Shown here: one piece after another, positions 8,176 to 63,495 of the stretch
Position numbering within the stretch: the stretch's first letter is position 1
Layout of the letters: each line of letters starts with the position of its first letter
Origin: Bacteroidales bacterium
GTDB taxonomy: Bacteria > Bacteroidota > Bacteroidia > Bacteroidales > VadinHA17
Length of the DNA stretch: 63,587 nucleotides
NCBI GenBank assembly: GCA_024762655.1
Contig: JANTHB010000008.1
Coordinates: 1-63,587, forward strand
Direction: 5' to 3'
Notes under the pieces: model-generated
The model's database searches: none
Seen by the model: the letters and a program-made list of their open reading frames with translations, nothing else
What the model was told of the DNA's origin: nothing
Made by a program: the position numbers and the translations under genes

Positions 8176-9420
8176 ATGCAAAATCGCATTGTAAACCATC
8201 TTGAGAACCCTGAAATGCTGGAGAAATTATTCCGGGAAAATAAAAATGCTTTCTCAAAAGCATTTGAAAACATTGCCATTGAAAATGATTCGGAATTGGT
8301 CAGGTATTGGAAGATAAGACTTTCCTATGAAGATGTAAATAAAAGGTCAGAAAACACAAAGGTCGGCCTGTTGTGGGTCATTCTTTTGTCTTTGGTCACA
8401 GGTATCCTGGTCAAACTCCCTGATCTTTTTACCCGGATTGATAAAAACTTCTTTTATACCAGAGACCTGGCCATCATCGTTTTCAATGGTATAATTCTTT
8501 TCACTTTTTGGCAAAACCGCCTGTTTAATCTTAAAAACCTTGCTGTTTACGCAACCATCCTGAGTGTGACAGCATTATTTATCAACCTGTATCCCAATAT
8601 GCAAAGTGATTCCATTATGTTATCCGCCATTTTCGTCCCGCTGCTATTGTGGTGCCTGTACGGACTGGCCTATACTTCATTTGATTTCAATGACACCAAC
8701 AAAAGAATGAACTTTTTACGATTCAATGGAGAATTACTCATTACAGCGGGACTCTTAATTATTGCAGGAGGTATTTTCTCAGCCCTGACCATTCAGTTTT
8801 TCTCCGTTATTGACATGCATATTGAAGATTTTTATTTTAATAATATTGCAATTTTCGGGGCGGTTGCTGTCCCCATTCTATCCATCTATCTCTTACAAGT
8901 ATATCCCGGCCTGACCAAAAAAATTGCTCCTGTTATTGCTAAAGTATTCGCGCCTATAGTATTGGTCACCATGACCGTTTACCTCATATCATTATTGTTT
9001 TCCAATAACCACATCCTGTATGACAGGGAGTTGTTATTACTGTTAAATGCCATGCTCCTGGCAATTCTGGCCATTATTGTATTTTCTGTTTCCGAACTTG
9101 ACAATTCAAAGAACAAAAACATCAATGTCCTCACATTATTTTTGTTATCATTGTTAGCGTTGATCATCAACGCCGTTGCACTATTCGCTATTCTGACTAG
9201 AGTCTCCCATGGCCTGACGCCGAACCGGACAGTGGTCCTGGGATCAAATATCCTGATTTTTATTCATCTTATCCTCATCGGAAAAAATTTATTAAAAACC
9301 TATTTTCTTCCGGATCAATCAGGAGAGGTGGAAAAATCAGTTACACAATATATAAACATCTACGCACTGTGGACCGTTTTCGTTATTTTTCTCCTGCCTT
9401 TCCTTTTTAAATTCAGATAG
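8176..9420 (+). CDS. DUF4153 domain-containing membrane protein
   Basis: 414 residues. A soluble N-terminal segment of about 65 residues contains RYWKIRLSYEDVNKRSENTKVG, typical of DUF4153 proteins. At least ten hydrophobic helices follow to the C terminus (FLLPFLFKFR). The protein is an integral inner-membrane protein of unknown function. It is the last gene of the AT-rich part and has no close partner: about 550 bases precede it and a large palindrome follows 130 bases after its stop. The start gives the full family N terminus. Confidence 0.75.
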   Translation: MQNRIVNHLENPEMLEKLFRENKNAFSKAFENIAIENDSELVRYWKIRLSYEDVNKRSENTKVGLLWVILLSLVTGILVKLPDLFTRIDKNFFYTRDLAIIVFNGIILFTFWQNRLFNLKNLAVYATILSVTALFINLYPNMQSDSIMLSAIFVPLLLWCLYGLAYTSFDFNDTNKRMNFLRFNGELLITAGLLIIAGGIFSALTIQFFSVIDMHIEDFYFNNIAIFGAVAVPILSIYLLQVYPGLTKKIAPVIAKVFAPIVLVTMTVYLISLLFSNNHILYDRELLLLLNAMLLAILAIIVFSVSELDNSKNKNINVLTLFLLSLLALIINAVALFAILTRVSHGLTPNRTVVLGSNILIFIHLILIGKNLLKTYFLPDQSGEVEKSVTQYINIYALWTVFVIFLLPFLFKFR

Positions 9421-9552
9421 GAATTGATAGGATGTGACGCCACCTTCCTTCCTCCCTCCGAACATTCCCGACCAAACCCGCATTAAAGGCGGGCATATCA
9501 CTCCAGTATTCCGGATACAAGGATCCAAATCATAACTAACTTCAAACACTTT

Positions 9553-9594
9553 ACAGACTCCTCCTACGTAGGCGCCTACGTAGGAGGAGTCTGT
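9553..9594. repeat. Perfect 42-bp palindrome with two CTACGTAG cores
   Basis: Bases 9553-9573 are the exact reverse complement of 9574-9594. Two CTACGTAG octamers lie at 9564-9571 and 9576-9583, 12 bases apart. The inner 22 bases (9563-9584) are identical to the centre of the palindrome near 63460-63495. The flanking arms differ between the two copies but stay complementary within each. There is no T-run, so it is not a standard intrinsic terminator. Confidence 0.95.
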
Positions 9595-9682
9595 GTGAAA
9601 AATATTTTACTACTGGGAATAAAACCCTTCATTAGGTTGTCTATAAAACAGATACTGAACCGGAACCAAGTAGTCATTACCC

Positions 9683-12526
9683 ATGACACTGAAGAAGTTT
9701 TTTTTAAGGGTTTTTATTTTTCTGACGGGGATACTTCCTCTGCGGGCACAATATAGTGTAACAGGAAGAGTTATGGATAAAACAGCTGGAAAACCGTTGT
9801 CAGATGCCCATATTATCCTGGAACATACCAGCGACACCCTGAAATATGCCGCTGTCAGTGACGGAAACGGGACCTTTTCCTTCTCCCGCATTCATCAGGG
9901 AAAATATCTCTTGCAGGTAATTTATCTGGGATACAAAACCTACCGGCAGCATCTGAATGTAGAACATGATACTCATCTCGGAGATATTTTTCTGGAGGCG
10001 GATTCATTGCACATTGGCGAAGTGACCGTAACCGGGCAGATCCCTATGGCCGAACAGGTAGGCGATACGACACAGTATAATGCCATGGCTTATAAAACAA
10101 CGCAGGATGCTTCGGCAGAGAACCTGGTAGAAAAAATGCCGGGGATCGTGATCGAGGATGGAAAAGTGCAGGCCCACGGAGAAGATGTGAAAGAGGTATT
10201 GGTGGATGGTAAGCCTTTTTTTGACCGCGACCCAATGGCAGCCCTGCGTAACCTGCCTGCCGAAGTGATCGAAAAAATTCAAATCTATGATAAACAGAGC
10301 GAACAGGCCGAGTTTACGGGTTTTGAAGACGGGAACACCCGCAAGGTTATGAACATTATTACACGCATCGGCATGCGTAACGGCACTTTCGGCAGGATGT
10401 ATGCCGGTTATGGTACCGACAACCGCTATATGGCCGGAGGAAACATCAATAAATTTAAGAAAGCCCGGCGTATCTCCGTCGTAGGACAATCAAACAATAT
10501 CAACAAGCGGAACTTCTCTTCGGAAGACCTGTTAGGAGTCATGTCTGCCTCTCGTCTGAAAAATGCCGGACGGAGAAGGACCGGCGGAACAGGGGGCGGA
10601 AATCGAAGTATGGGAGGCTCTAATGCCGGCGATTTCCTCGTCGCCCCACAGAATGGCATCACGCAGACCCATGCTCTGGGCGTTAATTATACGGACGAGT
10701 GGGGGAAAAAAGTTGAGATTGCCGGAAGCTACTTCTTTAACCGAACCCATAATACAGCGTCACAACGAACCAACCGTAATTACATCTCCGATCGTGATTC
10801 GGGCCAGGTTTACTCCGAACAGGAAGAAACCGGGAGCATCAATACGAACCACCGCTTTAACCTTCGTCTTATTTACAAAATCAACGAAAATAATTCAATC
10901 CTTTTCCGACCCAGGCTGACGCTGCAATATAATGACGGCACCTCGGATATATCCGGCCAGACCTACGATGTGCAAAGGATGATCAACCAGACTGACAATT
11001 CTTTTTCCTCCCGTCTGAACGGGTTAAACTATTCCGGGATTCTCCTTTTCAGACACAAATTCAAAAAGAAAGGCCGTACCTTTTCAATCAACATCAATTC
11101 GGGGTACAACCAGTCCGGCGGGGAGAATGCCATCTATTCCATCAACAGGTTTTACAAAGATACGGTGTTTCAGGATATAAGTAACCAGCAGGCTACCCTC
11201 GACGCCAACGGGTGGAACATACAAACCAACCTGATGTATACCGAACCTTTGGGAAAAAGAAGCATGATAGAAGTTCATTATCAGCAATCTTACCGGCCCG
11301 GCTTCTCAAACAAGGAAACCTGGAACTACGATCCGGCCGATGACGGATATACGCTCCTGGACACCTTGTTATCCAACAGATTTGACAGCCGCTACGCTAC
11401 CAGTGAGATAGGAACCGGTTATCTGTTTCACCAGGGAAAACTGAATATCACTACACGTATCTCGGCAGAATCATCCCATCTGGAGAGAGAAGAGACTTAT
11501 CCTGCGGTACAACAGATTACCAACCGTTATCTTAAACTGCAGGGGTTGGTCCTGCTACGTTACCGTATGGGATTGGGAAAAAACCTTAACATTGTTTACC
11601 GCACCAACACGTCCCCACCTTCGGTATCACAGATGCAGGAAGTCCTCGACAATACCGATCCATTGCATCTGAAGATAGGAAATGCAGGCTTATCTCCTTC
11701 TTTCAAACATAATCTTTTTTTCCGCTATTCCACCGTTAACCGGAAGACCTCCTCCATTTTCTTTGTTTTCCTCAACGGAAGCATGGAACGCAACGCTATC
11801 GTTTCCCAGACCTGGACCCCCCGACGGGACACCATCATTGCGGGGAACCTTATCCCTGGTGGCATACAGCTGACCCGGCCGGTAAATGTAAACGGGCAGT
11901 GGAGCGTCAGGAATTTCATCACTTACGGTTTCCCTGTACTGCCAATAAAATCCAATCTGAATTTGAATTTCTCGGCAAGTTACAACCGGACCCCCGGCTA
12001 TATCAACCAGAGTCTGAATATTTCAAGCAGCACCTCTTTCTCGACGGGGATTGTTCTCAGTAGCAATATCAGTGAAAACCTGGATTTCACCCTCTCTTCC
12101 AGAAGCAATTATCACCTCATCAGAAATTCCCTGCAAAAAAACAGCAACTATAACTACTTTTTACAAACCACCCGTGCCCGGCTGAAATGGATCTTCTGGA
12201 AAGGACTTACTTTTTCAACCGATGTTTCTCAAAAACTGTATACAGGTCTCTCCACCACCCTGGATCAGAACTATTGGATATGGAACCTGGGCTTCGGATA
12301 TAAATTGTTTAAAGACAAAAAAGGGGAAATTGCCCTGAATGTCTTTGACCTGCTGAACCAAAATCAAAGTATCAGCCGCAATACCATGGTCAACTATGTT
12401 GAAGATATTCAAACGGTAGTCCTGCAGCGTTTCGTCATGCTTACATTCAGCTATAATCTGAGGAGCTTCCCGGGAGCGGCTCCCCCTCCACCGGGACGTC
12501 CGCCGTTCAGGAGACTTGAACGGTGA
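9683..12526 (+). CDS. TonB-dependent-receptor-like outer membrane protein (OMP_b-brl_3 type)
   Basis: 947 residues. A signal peptide ends near LPLRAQ. Residues 25-105 are a carboxypeptidase-regulatory-like domain (VTGRVMDKTAGKPLSDAHI, ISVGYKT-type motif LGYKTYRQ). Residues 110-230 form a plug-like domain with VEKMPGIVIEDGKVQAHGE and EVLVDGKPFF, and the rest is a large beta-barrel. A glycine-rich stretch (RRRTGGTGGGNRSMGG) lies near residue 300. The C terminus carries a proline-rich tail, APPPPGRPPFRRLER, after the last strand. Such proteins sit in the outer membrane; their substrates are mostly unknown. It is a single gene with no SusD-like partner. Confidence 0.87.
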   Translation: MTLKKFFLRVFIFLTGILPLRAQYSVTGRVMDKTAGKPLSDAHIILEHTSDTLKYAAVSDGNGTFSFSRIHQGKYLLQVIYLGYKTYRQHLNVEHDTHLGDIFLEADSLHIGEVTVTGQIPMAEQVGDTTQYNAMAYKTTQDASAENLVEKMPGIVIEDGKVQAHGEDVKEVLVDGKPFFDRDPMAALRNLPAEVIEKIQIYDKQSEQAEFTGFEDGNTRKVMNIITRIGMRNGTFGRMYAGYGTDNRYMAGGNINKFKKARRISVVGQSNNINKRNFSSEDLLGVMSASRLKNAGRRRTGGTGGGNRSMGGSNAGDFLVAPQNGITQTHALGVNYTDEWGKKVEIAGSYFFNRTHNTASQRTNRNYISDRDSGQVYSEQEETGSINTNHRFNLRLIYKINENNSILFRPRLTLQYNDGTSDISGQTYDVQRMINQTDNSFSSRLNGLNYSGILLFRHKFKKKGRTFSININSGYNQSGGENAIYSINRFYKDTVFQDISNQQATLDANGWNIQTNLMYTEPLGKRSMIEVHYQQSYRPGFSNKETWNYDPADDGYTLLDTLLSNRFDSRYATSEIGTGYLFHQGKLNITTRISAESSHLEREETYPAVQQITNRYLKLQGLVLLRYRMGLGKNLNIVYRTNTSPPSVSQMQEVLDNTDPLHLKIGNAGLSPSFKHNLFFRYSTVNRKTSSIFFVFLNGSMERNAIVSQTWTPRRDTIIAGNLIPGGIQLTRPVNVNGQWSVRNFITYGFPVLPIKSNLNLNFSASYNRTPGYINQSLNISSSTSFSTGIVLSSNISENLDFTLSSRSNYHLIRNSLQKNSNYNYFLQTTRARLKWIFWKGLTFSTDVSQKLYTGLSTTLDQNYWIWNLGFGYKLFKDKKGEIALNVFDLLNQNQSISRNTMVNYVEDIQTVVLQRFVMLTFSYNLRSFPGAAPPPPGRPPFRRLER

Positions 12527-13273: not shown

Positions 13274-13325
13274 CTACGTAGTTATAAAAAATCTCCTACG
13301 TAGATAAGATTGATTACCTACGTAG
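13274..13325. promoter_or_regulatory. Three CTACGTAG sites at exact 22-bp spacing
   Basis: The palindromic octamer CTACGTAG occurs at 13274-13281, 13296-13303 and 13318-13325. The 22-base step is about two helical turns, so all three face the same side of the DNA. The array lies between the divergent msrB and beta-galactosidase genes, 84 bases from the msrB start. It looks like an operator array, but the binding protein is unknown. Confidence 0.55.
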
Positions 13326-61650: not shown

Positions 61651-61889
61651 CGTCAGGAAAGAAATTAAAAGCATCCATCTGTTACAATCCGGTTTTCACT
61701 ACTTAGGGTTTGCTCCCGTCTGCATAAATCTTCTCAAAGGGAAAATAATCCCAAATTTACCCGGTACCCTACCGCAGGCGGGTGCGCATTAGTAGATTTT
61801 TTCGAAATATCTATTGCGCAACCCGGGATAATAGGTCAAAAAAATTTCTTTATTTGTATACCTGAAAGAAAATGCCAAACTTATCCGAT

Positions 61890-63374
61890 ATGAAAACAAT
61901 TGGGAAATATATGCTGATCGCCGGCCTGTTGGGACTTGGGTTTCTCGGTGCCTGTTCAGGCGGGAAAAAAGCAAAAGATGCAAAAGATAAACCTGAACGT
62001 CTGAATATACTATGGATTGTGGCGGATGATCTGGGCACCGACCTGGGGTGCTATGGAAACGAGGTGGTCTATACCCCCAACCTGGACCATCTGGCGGCGC
62101 AGGGTGTAAAATACGGTTATTTCTACACCGTAACTGCCGTATGTTCCCCCAGCCGTTCTACGATGATCACCGGGATGTACCCTACCAGTATTCATTGCCA
62201 GAATCATCGCACCCACTTTAAAAAACCCTTACCGGACGGGGTGGTACCCATTACCTGGTTATTCCGCAAAGCGGGATATTTCACCTGTAACGGAGATTTC
62301 CGGGATAAAAACAGGCCCGGGAAACAAGACTACAATTTCAAAGCCGACAACCTCTATGACGGCACCGACTGGAGCCAGCGTAAACCCGGGCAGCCTTTCT
62401 TTGCTCAGATTCAGATCCACTACCCTCACCGGGCCTTCTCTCATGACACCATTCGTCCCATTGATCCGGAGAAAGTAACAATCCCTCCCTATTATCCGGA
62501 CCACCGGATTACAAGGCAAGACTGGGCTTTATACCTTGAAACCATTCAGATCCTGGACCGGACCGTAGAAAATATTCTACAAAGACTGGAGAAGGAGGGG
62601 CTGGCCAAATCCACAGTAGTATTTTTCTTTGGCGACCAGGGACGGCCTATGCTACGTGCCAAACAATTTTTGTATGACCCCGGTATTCATACCCCGCTGA
62701 TTATCCGTTATCCGGATGGAAAAATGGAAGGAACGGTTGAGAATAAACTTGTAAGTAATGTGGATCTCGCTCCGGCAAGCCTTGCCCTGGCAGGCATCCC
62801 GATACCTGAATATATGCAGGGGATTGATTTTCTGGACCCCAACGTCCCGGAAAGGACTTATGTATATTGCATGCGTGATCGCCGGGATGAAACCGTGGAC
62901 CGGATACGGGCTGTACGTACAAATAATTTTAAATATATACGTAACTTTTATCCGGAAAGGCCATACACCCAGTTCAATACCTATAAAAAACAAGCTTATC
63001 CCGTGCTTACCCTGATGCAGGTATTGCACCGGAAAGGGAAACTGACACCGGCGCAGGAGCAGTTTATGGCTGACAGAAAACCTCCCGAAGAGTTATATGA
63101 CCTGATCCGGGATCCTTTTGAAATTCATAATCTGTACAAGAACAACGCCTATGCAGATACCTTACAGCAACTGCGTACTCTGCTGGACACCGTACTGGCA
63201 AAATACGATAAAGGCACCTACCCCGAAGATGAAAGAGAGATTGAATACGCAAAAAAACTGGCCGCCAAACGATATACCCAAATTATGAAACGCCGGGGGC
63301 TGGGTGAAAATCCCACGGATGAACAAATCCTGGAATGGTGGGAGAAAAGACTCACCCCGGCCGGAGGAAGGTAA
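61890..63374 (+). CDS. Sulfatase, lipoprotein
   Basis: 494 residues. A lipoprotein signal ends in GFLGAC. The sulfatase domain starts with ILWIVADDLGTDLGCYG (metal Asp pair), and the formylglycine motif is CSPSR with Cys85. VVFFFGDQGRP is the C-terminal metal motif, with Gln at the position that is usually Asn or His. The C-terminal LRTNNFKYIRNF-like region is present (VRTNNFKYIRNFYPE). It hydrolyses a sulfate ester, probably from a glycan, after activation by a formylglycine maturase not encoded here. Another in-frame ATG at 61872 adds six residues before the signal. Confidence 0.88.
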   Translation: MKTIGKYMLIAGLLGLGFLGACSGGKKAKDAKDKPERLNILWIVADDLGTDLGCYGNEVVYTPNLDHLAAQGVKYGYFYTVTAVCSPSRSTMITGMYPTSIHCQNHRTHFKKPLPDGVVPITWLFRKAGYFTCNGDFRDKNRPGKQDYNFKADNLYDGTDWSQRKPGQPFFAQIQIHYPHRAFSHDTIRPIDPEKVTIPPYYPDHRITRQDWALYLETIQILDRTVENILQRLEKEGLAKSTVVFFFGDQGRPMLRAKQFLYDPGIHTPLIIRYPDGKMEGTVENKLVSNVDLAPASLALAGIPIPEYMQGIDFLDPNVPERTYVYCMRDRRDETVDRIRAVRTNNFKYIRNFYPERPYTQFNTYKKQAYPVLTLMQVLHRKGKLTPAQEQFMADRKPPEELYDLIRDPFEIHNLYKNNAYADTLQQLRTLLDTVLAKYDKGTYPEDEREIEYAKKLAAKRYTQIMKRRGLGENPTDEQILEWWEKRLTPAGGR

Positions 63375-63459: not shown

Positions 63460-63495
63460 GAAAGCACCTACGTAGGCGCCTACGTAGGTACTTTC
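63460..63495. repeat. Second CTACGTAG palindrome, 36 bp with one mismatch
   Basis: CTACGTAG occurs at 63468-63475 and 63480-63487, 12 bases apart. The arms pair over 18 bases with one mismatch (C65/A90), and the pairing can extend by three bases if A59 is bulged. The inner 22 bases are identical to those of the palindrome at 9553-9594. It lies about 85 bases after the sulfatase stop. No T-run follows. Confidence 0.85.

Follow-up and report, generated by a model that had tools for sequence, protein, structure and literature searches.

A perfect 42-bp palindrome in a Bacteroidales genome was found to be one of about fifty arrays of a short palindromic octamer, CTACGTAG. The arrays are distributed genome-wide, and octamer and spacing are conserved while the linkers vary. 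Array positions are conserved between species, octamers are retained within coding sequences, few decayed copies exist and no neighbouring gene family is enriched. I regard it as roughly an even chance that the palindrome belongs to a set of putative binding arrays, spread over the whole chromosome, for a cooperative dimeric protein with an architectural role. The protein binding, the cooperative dimer and the architectural role are what I infer, the last from the number and dispersal of the arrays and from the lack of a regulon.

Octamer arrays in the window

The window is the whole stretch of 63,587 nt that was analysed. Its source genome (G000) has 3.44 Mb in 165 contigs. The 8-base palindrome CTACGTAG occurs seven times in the window, in three clusters, while dinucleotide shuffles gave a mean of 0.23 and a maximum of 2. 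The arrays and their neighbours are as follows.

8176..9420, plus strand: 414-aa ORF without Pfam or NCBIfam match, upstream neighbour of the first array (context only)
9553..9594, no strand: 42-bp perfect palindrome, two octamers at 12-bp spacing with 11-bp complementary outer arms
9564..9571, no strand: CTACGTAG octamer 1 of the first array
9576..9583, no strand: CTACGTAG octamer 2 of the first array; homology with the closest relative (G006) starts exactly here
9683..12526, plus strand: outer-membrane beta-barrel protein (PF14905), downstream neighbour of the first array (context only)
13274..13325, no strand: three octamers spaced 22 bp apart, between the divergent genes for MsrB (msrB) and a LacZ-type beta-galactosidase
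61872..63374, plus strand: sulfatase (PF00884), upstream of the second two-octamer array (context only)
63460..63495, no strand: second two-octamer array with imperfect arms, GAAAGCAC and GTACTTTC
63467..63488, no strand: second two-octamer array, 22-bp core identical to the first, octamers at 63468 and 63480

A preliminary description of this DNA had reported the palindrome, the second copy of its 22-base core and the seven octamers in three clusters. The sequence at 9553-9594 is indeed its own reverse complement, the core recurs identically at 63467-63488, and a recount likewise gave seven octamers in three clusters. It had also stated that the arms are complementary within each copy. This holds for the first copy (11 bp) but not fully for the second, whose arms GAAAGCAC and GTACTTTC form 2 pairs, one mismatch and then 5 pairs. 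The octamers of the 22-bp array start at 13274, 13296 and 13318, and its linkers are unrelated. An Rfam search of the whole window gave no match, and no terminator-like site was found at 9300-9800, around the first palindrome. Orthology of the second two-octamer array with the arrays at sulfatase genes of G001, G004 and G006 was considered and dropped, because those lie 5′ of the gene and the window copy lies 3′.

Distribution of the arrays

Is the octamer pair confined to the window? The whole-genome search found 53 copies of CTACGTAG-N4-CTACGTAG in G000, while the control, the reversed pattern in the same genome search, gave none. The preliminary description would have been wrong if the octamer occurred at random frequency or the palindromes at two places only; about fifty arrays were found instead. 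All six congeners have the pair, with 17-60 copies per genome. Other genera of the same family have 0 to 69 copies (1-69 where present), and the pair was found in none of 24 genomes from other families in the order. The total number of octamers is 125 in G000, 45-113 in the congeners and up to about 146 in array-bearing genera, against 2-9 in the array-less genera searched. Thus, most octamers of G000 sit in arrays.

In a wide scan of genome contigs, the matches listed were mostly from Bacteroidales and Bacteroidota metagenome assemblies. Isolated single octamer pairs outside Bacteroidota are expected by chance in so large a collection. Genomes of Lloydbacteria (L099, L100) and Paceibacterota (L087, L112) have palindromic CTACGTAG pairs, some with complementary arms, which are possibly independent of the Bacteroidales arrays. 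A phage origin was set aside, since only 5 matches were found among 2.9 million viral contigs. Literature searches covering part of the literature showed no earlier description of the octamer or the arrays among the matches listed.

Spacing and lineage-specific architecture

Across lineages, two things are constant, the octamer and a pitch of 12 bp or, in some arrays, 14 or 22 bp, while the linkers, the number of units (2 to 5) and the flanks vary. Among all sequences examined, neighbouring octamers within 100 bp are 12 bp (299 cases), 22 bp (23), 14 bp (12) or 24 bp (6) apart, although these proportions are biased because most loci were collected with the 12-bp (N4) pattern. Most of the 24-bp cases have a decayed middle octamer, and other distances are nearly absent. 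A search of G010 (genus g5) open to any linker of 5-34 revealed the same classes of 12, 14 and 22 bp, with rows of up to four octamers at the 22-bp pitch. The 22-bp array at window position 13274 of G000 has an orthologue in G002 (L170) with the same octamers and pitch and with different linkers.

The number of units depends on the lineage. G000, G006, G002 and G003 have chiefly two octamers per array, and GCGC is the most frequent linker in G000 (22 of 42). Many arrays of G001, G004 and G005 have three octamers, while in genus g6 a four-octamer pattern was matched 14 times in each of the two genomes (G011 and G022). A variant octamer, CTACGTTG, recurs mid-array in G022 (C2:12850, C3:3400, C29:14528 and others) and may mark tolerated changes of the half-site.

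G001 and G004 have a dispersed directional element of roughly 110-120 bp with unlike ends, and the array forms its right end. On the left, the element has a module with two or three ACTTT/AAAGT half-sites, and its AT-rich spacer is near-fixed in length. In loci L204-L241, this second module lies about 58 bp to the left of each array. It is not evident in G000 or G006. A promoter role of the elements was rejected, since both orientations toward the neighbouring genes are equally common.

Decayed copies are rare. In G000, 42 sites are exact, and allowing up to 2 mismatches added only one (control 0). The exact pattern had been used to pick most of these loci, and larger stretches of G000 contigs agree with the count.

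Arrays relative to genes

The arrays lie mostly in diverse intergenic gaps, and twice inside coding sequence. Convergent gaps are over-represented (12 sites, 5.3 expected) and divergent gaps under-represented (3, 8.1 expected). When 72 neighbour proteins were matched to 161 Pfam families, no enrichment was found.

The first intragenic array lies in mnmA (named by NCBIfam) of G000, G006 and G002, at about residue 144 of 410, where an in-frame array of 24 bp encodes NYVG[A/T]YVD. It is missing from all 15 other aligned homologues. The array was gained in-frame in the ancestor of the three genomes. The second lies in a LuxC-like gene (weak Pfam match) of G000, G001, G004 and G005, with two or three octamers. 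The proteins are 61-65% identical to that of G000; the octamer codons are unchanged, while the linker codons have changed. The identity of the octamer codons is supportive, not conclusive, as its chance is about 0.02 for four codons given the background. In 13 other genomes of the family, the LuxC-like gene has unrelated sequence of similar length in place of the array, and in G010 a 14-bp array lies just outside the gene.

Positions between genes are also shared. One intergenic array is kept in G000, G004 and G001 and slightly decayed in G006, in surroundings that are poorly alignable. An array lies upstream of a CvpA-family gene in G000, G006, G001, G004 and genus g6, and 14 of 20 arrays of G004 have a positional counterpart in G001. 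The orthologous 22-bp arrays, the shared intergenic site, the intragenic arrays and the scarcity of decayed copies point to selection that acts on the octamers as DNA.

In G003, A runs lie to the left and T runs to the right of arrays L066, L105, L127 and L006, which gives them the look of bidirectional terminators, unlike those of other genomes. The T fraction beside the G003 copies is 0.70, while G000 has no T-run excess (0.38, against 0.34 for A).

Complementary arms and linkers

The preliminary description had proposed a conserved protein-binding core inside a hairpin or cruciform. The core is well supported at the level of sequence: the octamers are fixed among variable linkers and flanks, the spacing is strictly 12, 14 or 22 bp, and the octamers are kept across species within genes. 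The hairpin holds for some of the arrays. In G000, the mean complementarity of the outer arms is 2.24 bp, against 1.03 after random exchange of the right arms between copies (0 of 2000 shuffles). G006, G003 and the 14-bp arrays of G010 show the excess too, but G001/G004 and the 22-bp class do not. Of the 27 four-octamer arrays of genus g6, 9 have linkers 1 and 3 that are exactly complementary, where 1.9 would be expected. The arrays L103 and L119 share flanking sequence and the upstream gene, and their linkers are compensatory (CTGG..CCAG and GCAG..CTGC). The arm excess and the compensatory linkers make the remark on arms real in part. On the other side, complementary arms are missing altogether from 14 of 42 copies in G000 and from the three-octamer arrays of G001/G004, and the 22-bp spacing makes a compact hairpin impossible. 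Since one third of the copies of G000 lack arms, the hairpin is not the defining feature.

According to a study of template switching (PMC8794818), this process on inverted repeats can give rise to complementary arms and preserve them. In the first copy, it probably produced the long arms as a secondary feature of a short inverted repeat; this source seems the likelier one because the arms are dispensable, while the octamers and their pitch are not. Simple duplex binding does not predict the excess of arm and linker complementarity, a point against the proposed binding arrays.

Chromosomal spread and rearrangement

The 27 arrays on the 28 largest contigs of G000 show a more even spread than expected at random (chi 9.3, 27 expected, P=0.0002), with the lengths of five contigs interpolated. 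The spread in G006 has the same direction (P=0.08), and significance was reached in G000 only. An excess of contig ends at arrays was not significant in four genomes. In G022, several arrays are placed right at contig ends (C1:1, C91:4, C178:104, C53:74, C90:113).

Comparison of G000 with G006 showed broken synteny at 5 of 13 gaps with an array, against 6 of the 65 that have none (Fisher P=0.016), a small sample of testable gaps in draft assemblies. The G000 loci L031 (A-B), L023 (C-D) and L043 (E-F) correspond to the G006 junctions A-C and E-D (loci L202 and L279), and an array or octamers lie at each join. These three arrays and two array-bearing junctions suggest array-to-array rearrangement.

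Proposed explanation and alternatives

How might the arrays work? A dimeric, sequence-specific DNA-binding protein would recognise each palindromic CTACGTAG octamer. An array would hold two to five such dimers next to one another at a fixed pitch, 12 bp or less often 14 or 22, so that the sites would act only as cooperative arrays. Some fifty arrays per genome would then serve the architecture or positioning of the nucleoid (the organisation of domains, segregation or the placement of division) and not the control of single genes. A wider proposal is more tentative, and I hold it as a possibility that is somewhat less probable than its opposite: a chromosome-organising system new to Bacteroidales, in which a putative protein sits on phased arrays roughly every 50-70 kb, diverging lineages change the arrays at some fifty loci together (in unit number, pitch and flanking modules), and the arrays are also preferred junctions of rearrangement. 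A mobile or recombining element would be another way to account for the in-frame gain in mnmA and the enrichment at synteny breakpoints.

Such an element is the main rival. The arrays could be REP-like or MITE-like non-autonomous elements, short palindromes with GTAG/CTAC tags that are spread by a transposase acting in trans. Their dispersal, the preference for intergenic and above all convergent gaps, the gain in mnmA and the 110-120 bp directional element of G001/G004 agree with this, and GTAG-tagged REPs lie chiefly 3′ of genes and at times within them (PMC3733652). This explanation is nevertheless unlikely, as neither the transposase nor the form of the element bears it out. The Y1 transposase family (Y1_Tnp, PF01797) was not detected in the array-bearing G003, G005, G011 and G024, but was found in the array-less G007, G013 and G014. 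Array positions are largely common to species, decayed copies are almost absent in G000, the LuxC-like array replaces sequence of about equal length, and octamers and spacing are conserved without a continuous element. Two genomes each have a Y1 transposase gene about 1 kb or less from an array (G000:C48, 2404-2763 and 3434; G022:C109, 7928-8272 and 7694). Recombination or fragility offers another account, in which chromosomes break and rejoin at cruciform-prone arrays, which then mark the junctions. The broken array gaps, the G006 junctions and the start of G006 homology exactly at an octamer of the first palindrome speak for it. However, most arrays occupy colinear, conserved positions, the sample is small and from draft assemblies, and recombination alone leaves the fixed spacing, the lineage changes in unit number and the retention of octamers in coding sequence unexplained; I consider it rather improbable.

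RNA hairpins, as transcription terminators or stabilisers of 3′ UTRs, would account for the enrichment in convergent gaps, the outward T runs of G003 and the mirror linkers of g6, and an 8-bp stem with a 4-nt loop could form. Yet the mnmA array is mid-gene, ordinary terminator-like hairpins adjoin the arrays in L021 and L210, G000 lacks a T-run excess, the window has no Rfam match and the 22-bp arrays have no compact stem. This explanation is very unlikely, and a terminator as the general function was ruled out by the mid-mnmA array, the adjoining hairpins and the missing T runs outside G003. Operators of a large regulon are very improbable as well. Some arrays are divergent or 5′ of genes, such as the 22-bp array between msrB and lacZ and the one upstream of the CvpA-family gene, but divergent gaps are depleted, the neighbours have no common function and some arrays are intragenic. 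A regulon was rejected, as no neighbour family is enriched.

Comparison with known systems

To my knowledge, Bacteroidota have no described dispersed sites that serve nucleoid occlusion, organise macrodomains or load chromosome proteins. The matches listed in a literature search on such sites concern E. coli, V. cholerae or FtsZ chemistry. The arrays provide a short, exact DNA bait for finding a chromosome-organising protein. They are also a natural experiment, a genome-wide set of sites whose unit number and pitch change together across genera, and they allow one to ask whether sets of binding sites seed chromosome rearrangements.

GTAG-tagged REPs and REPINs, which are associated with RAYT transposases, are likewise dispersed extragenic GTAG palindromes, often 3′ of genes and sometimes inside them (PMC3733652). 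The arrays differ in their conserved pitch and in lacking both a continuous element and a REP-type stem beyond the GTAG tag. Here GTAG is half of the octamer, next to a variable 4-bp linker, and does not stand at the foot of a separate imperfect stem-loop; nor does PF01797, the Y1 tyrosine transposase family, track the arrays. As for MITEs or transposons, the cases to compare are the 24-bp in-frame gain in mnmA, the same-length replacement in the LuxC-like gene and the unlike ends of the G001/G004 element. Intrinsic terminators have a GC-rich stem followed by a T run; G000 shows no excess of T runs, and the G003 copies are an exception. Template-switched quasipalindromes (PMC8794818) resemble the arrays in having arms that differ among copies but are complementary within a copy. 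Template switching covers the arms only and leaves the octamers, their pitch and the number of sites unexplained. HIP1 of cyanobacteria is an over-represented palindromic octamer too, but it is far more frequent and does not occur in phased pairs.

The closest likeness is to the sites of SlmA, Noc and MatP (matS). There are 24 SlmA binding sites (SBS) in E. coli and 79 in V. cholerae, and 74 Noc sites, and SlmA binds as a dimer of dimers (PMC5519180). Those sites, like the arrays, are short palindromes in tens of copies per chromosome (53 here, control 0) whose neighbours have no common function. They are bound by a sequence-specific protein that is not dedicated to one regulon, as is proposed for the arrays. 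Such sites occupy a defined zone of the chromosome, at ori or ter or away from ter; for the arrays, the draft contigs of G000 showed an even spread. In contrast to those sites, the arrays are tandem arrangements of a shorter palindrome with a strict pitch and variable linkers, in Bacteroidales, and they are mostly intergenic where the SBS of E. coli are mostly intragenic. The best-supported reading is that the CTACGTAG arrays may work like SlmA, Noc or MatP sites, a likeness that falls short of a claim to membership.
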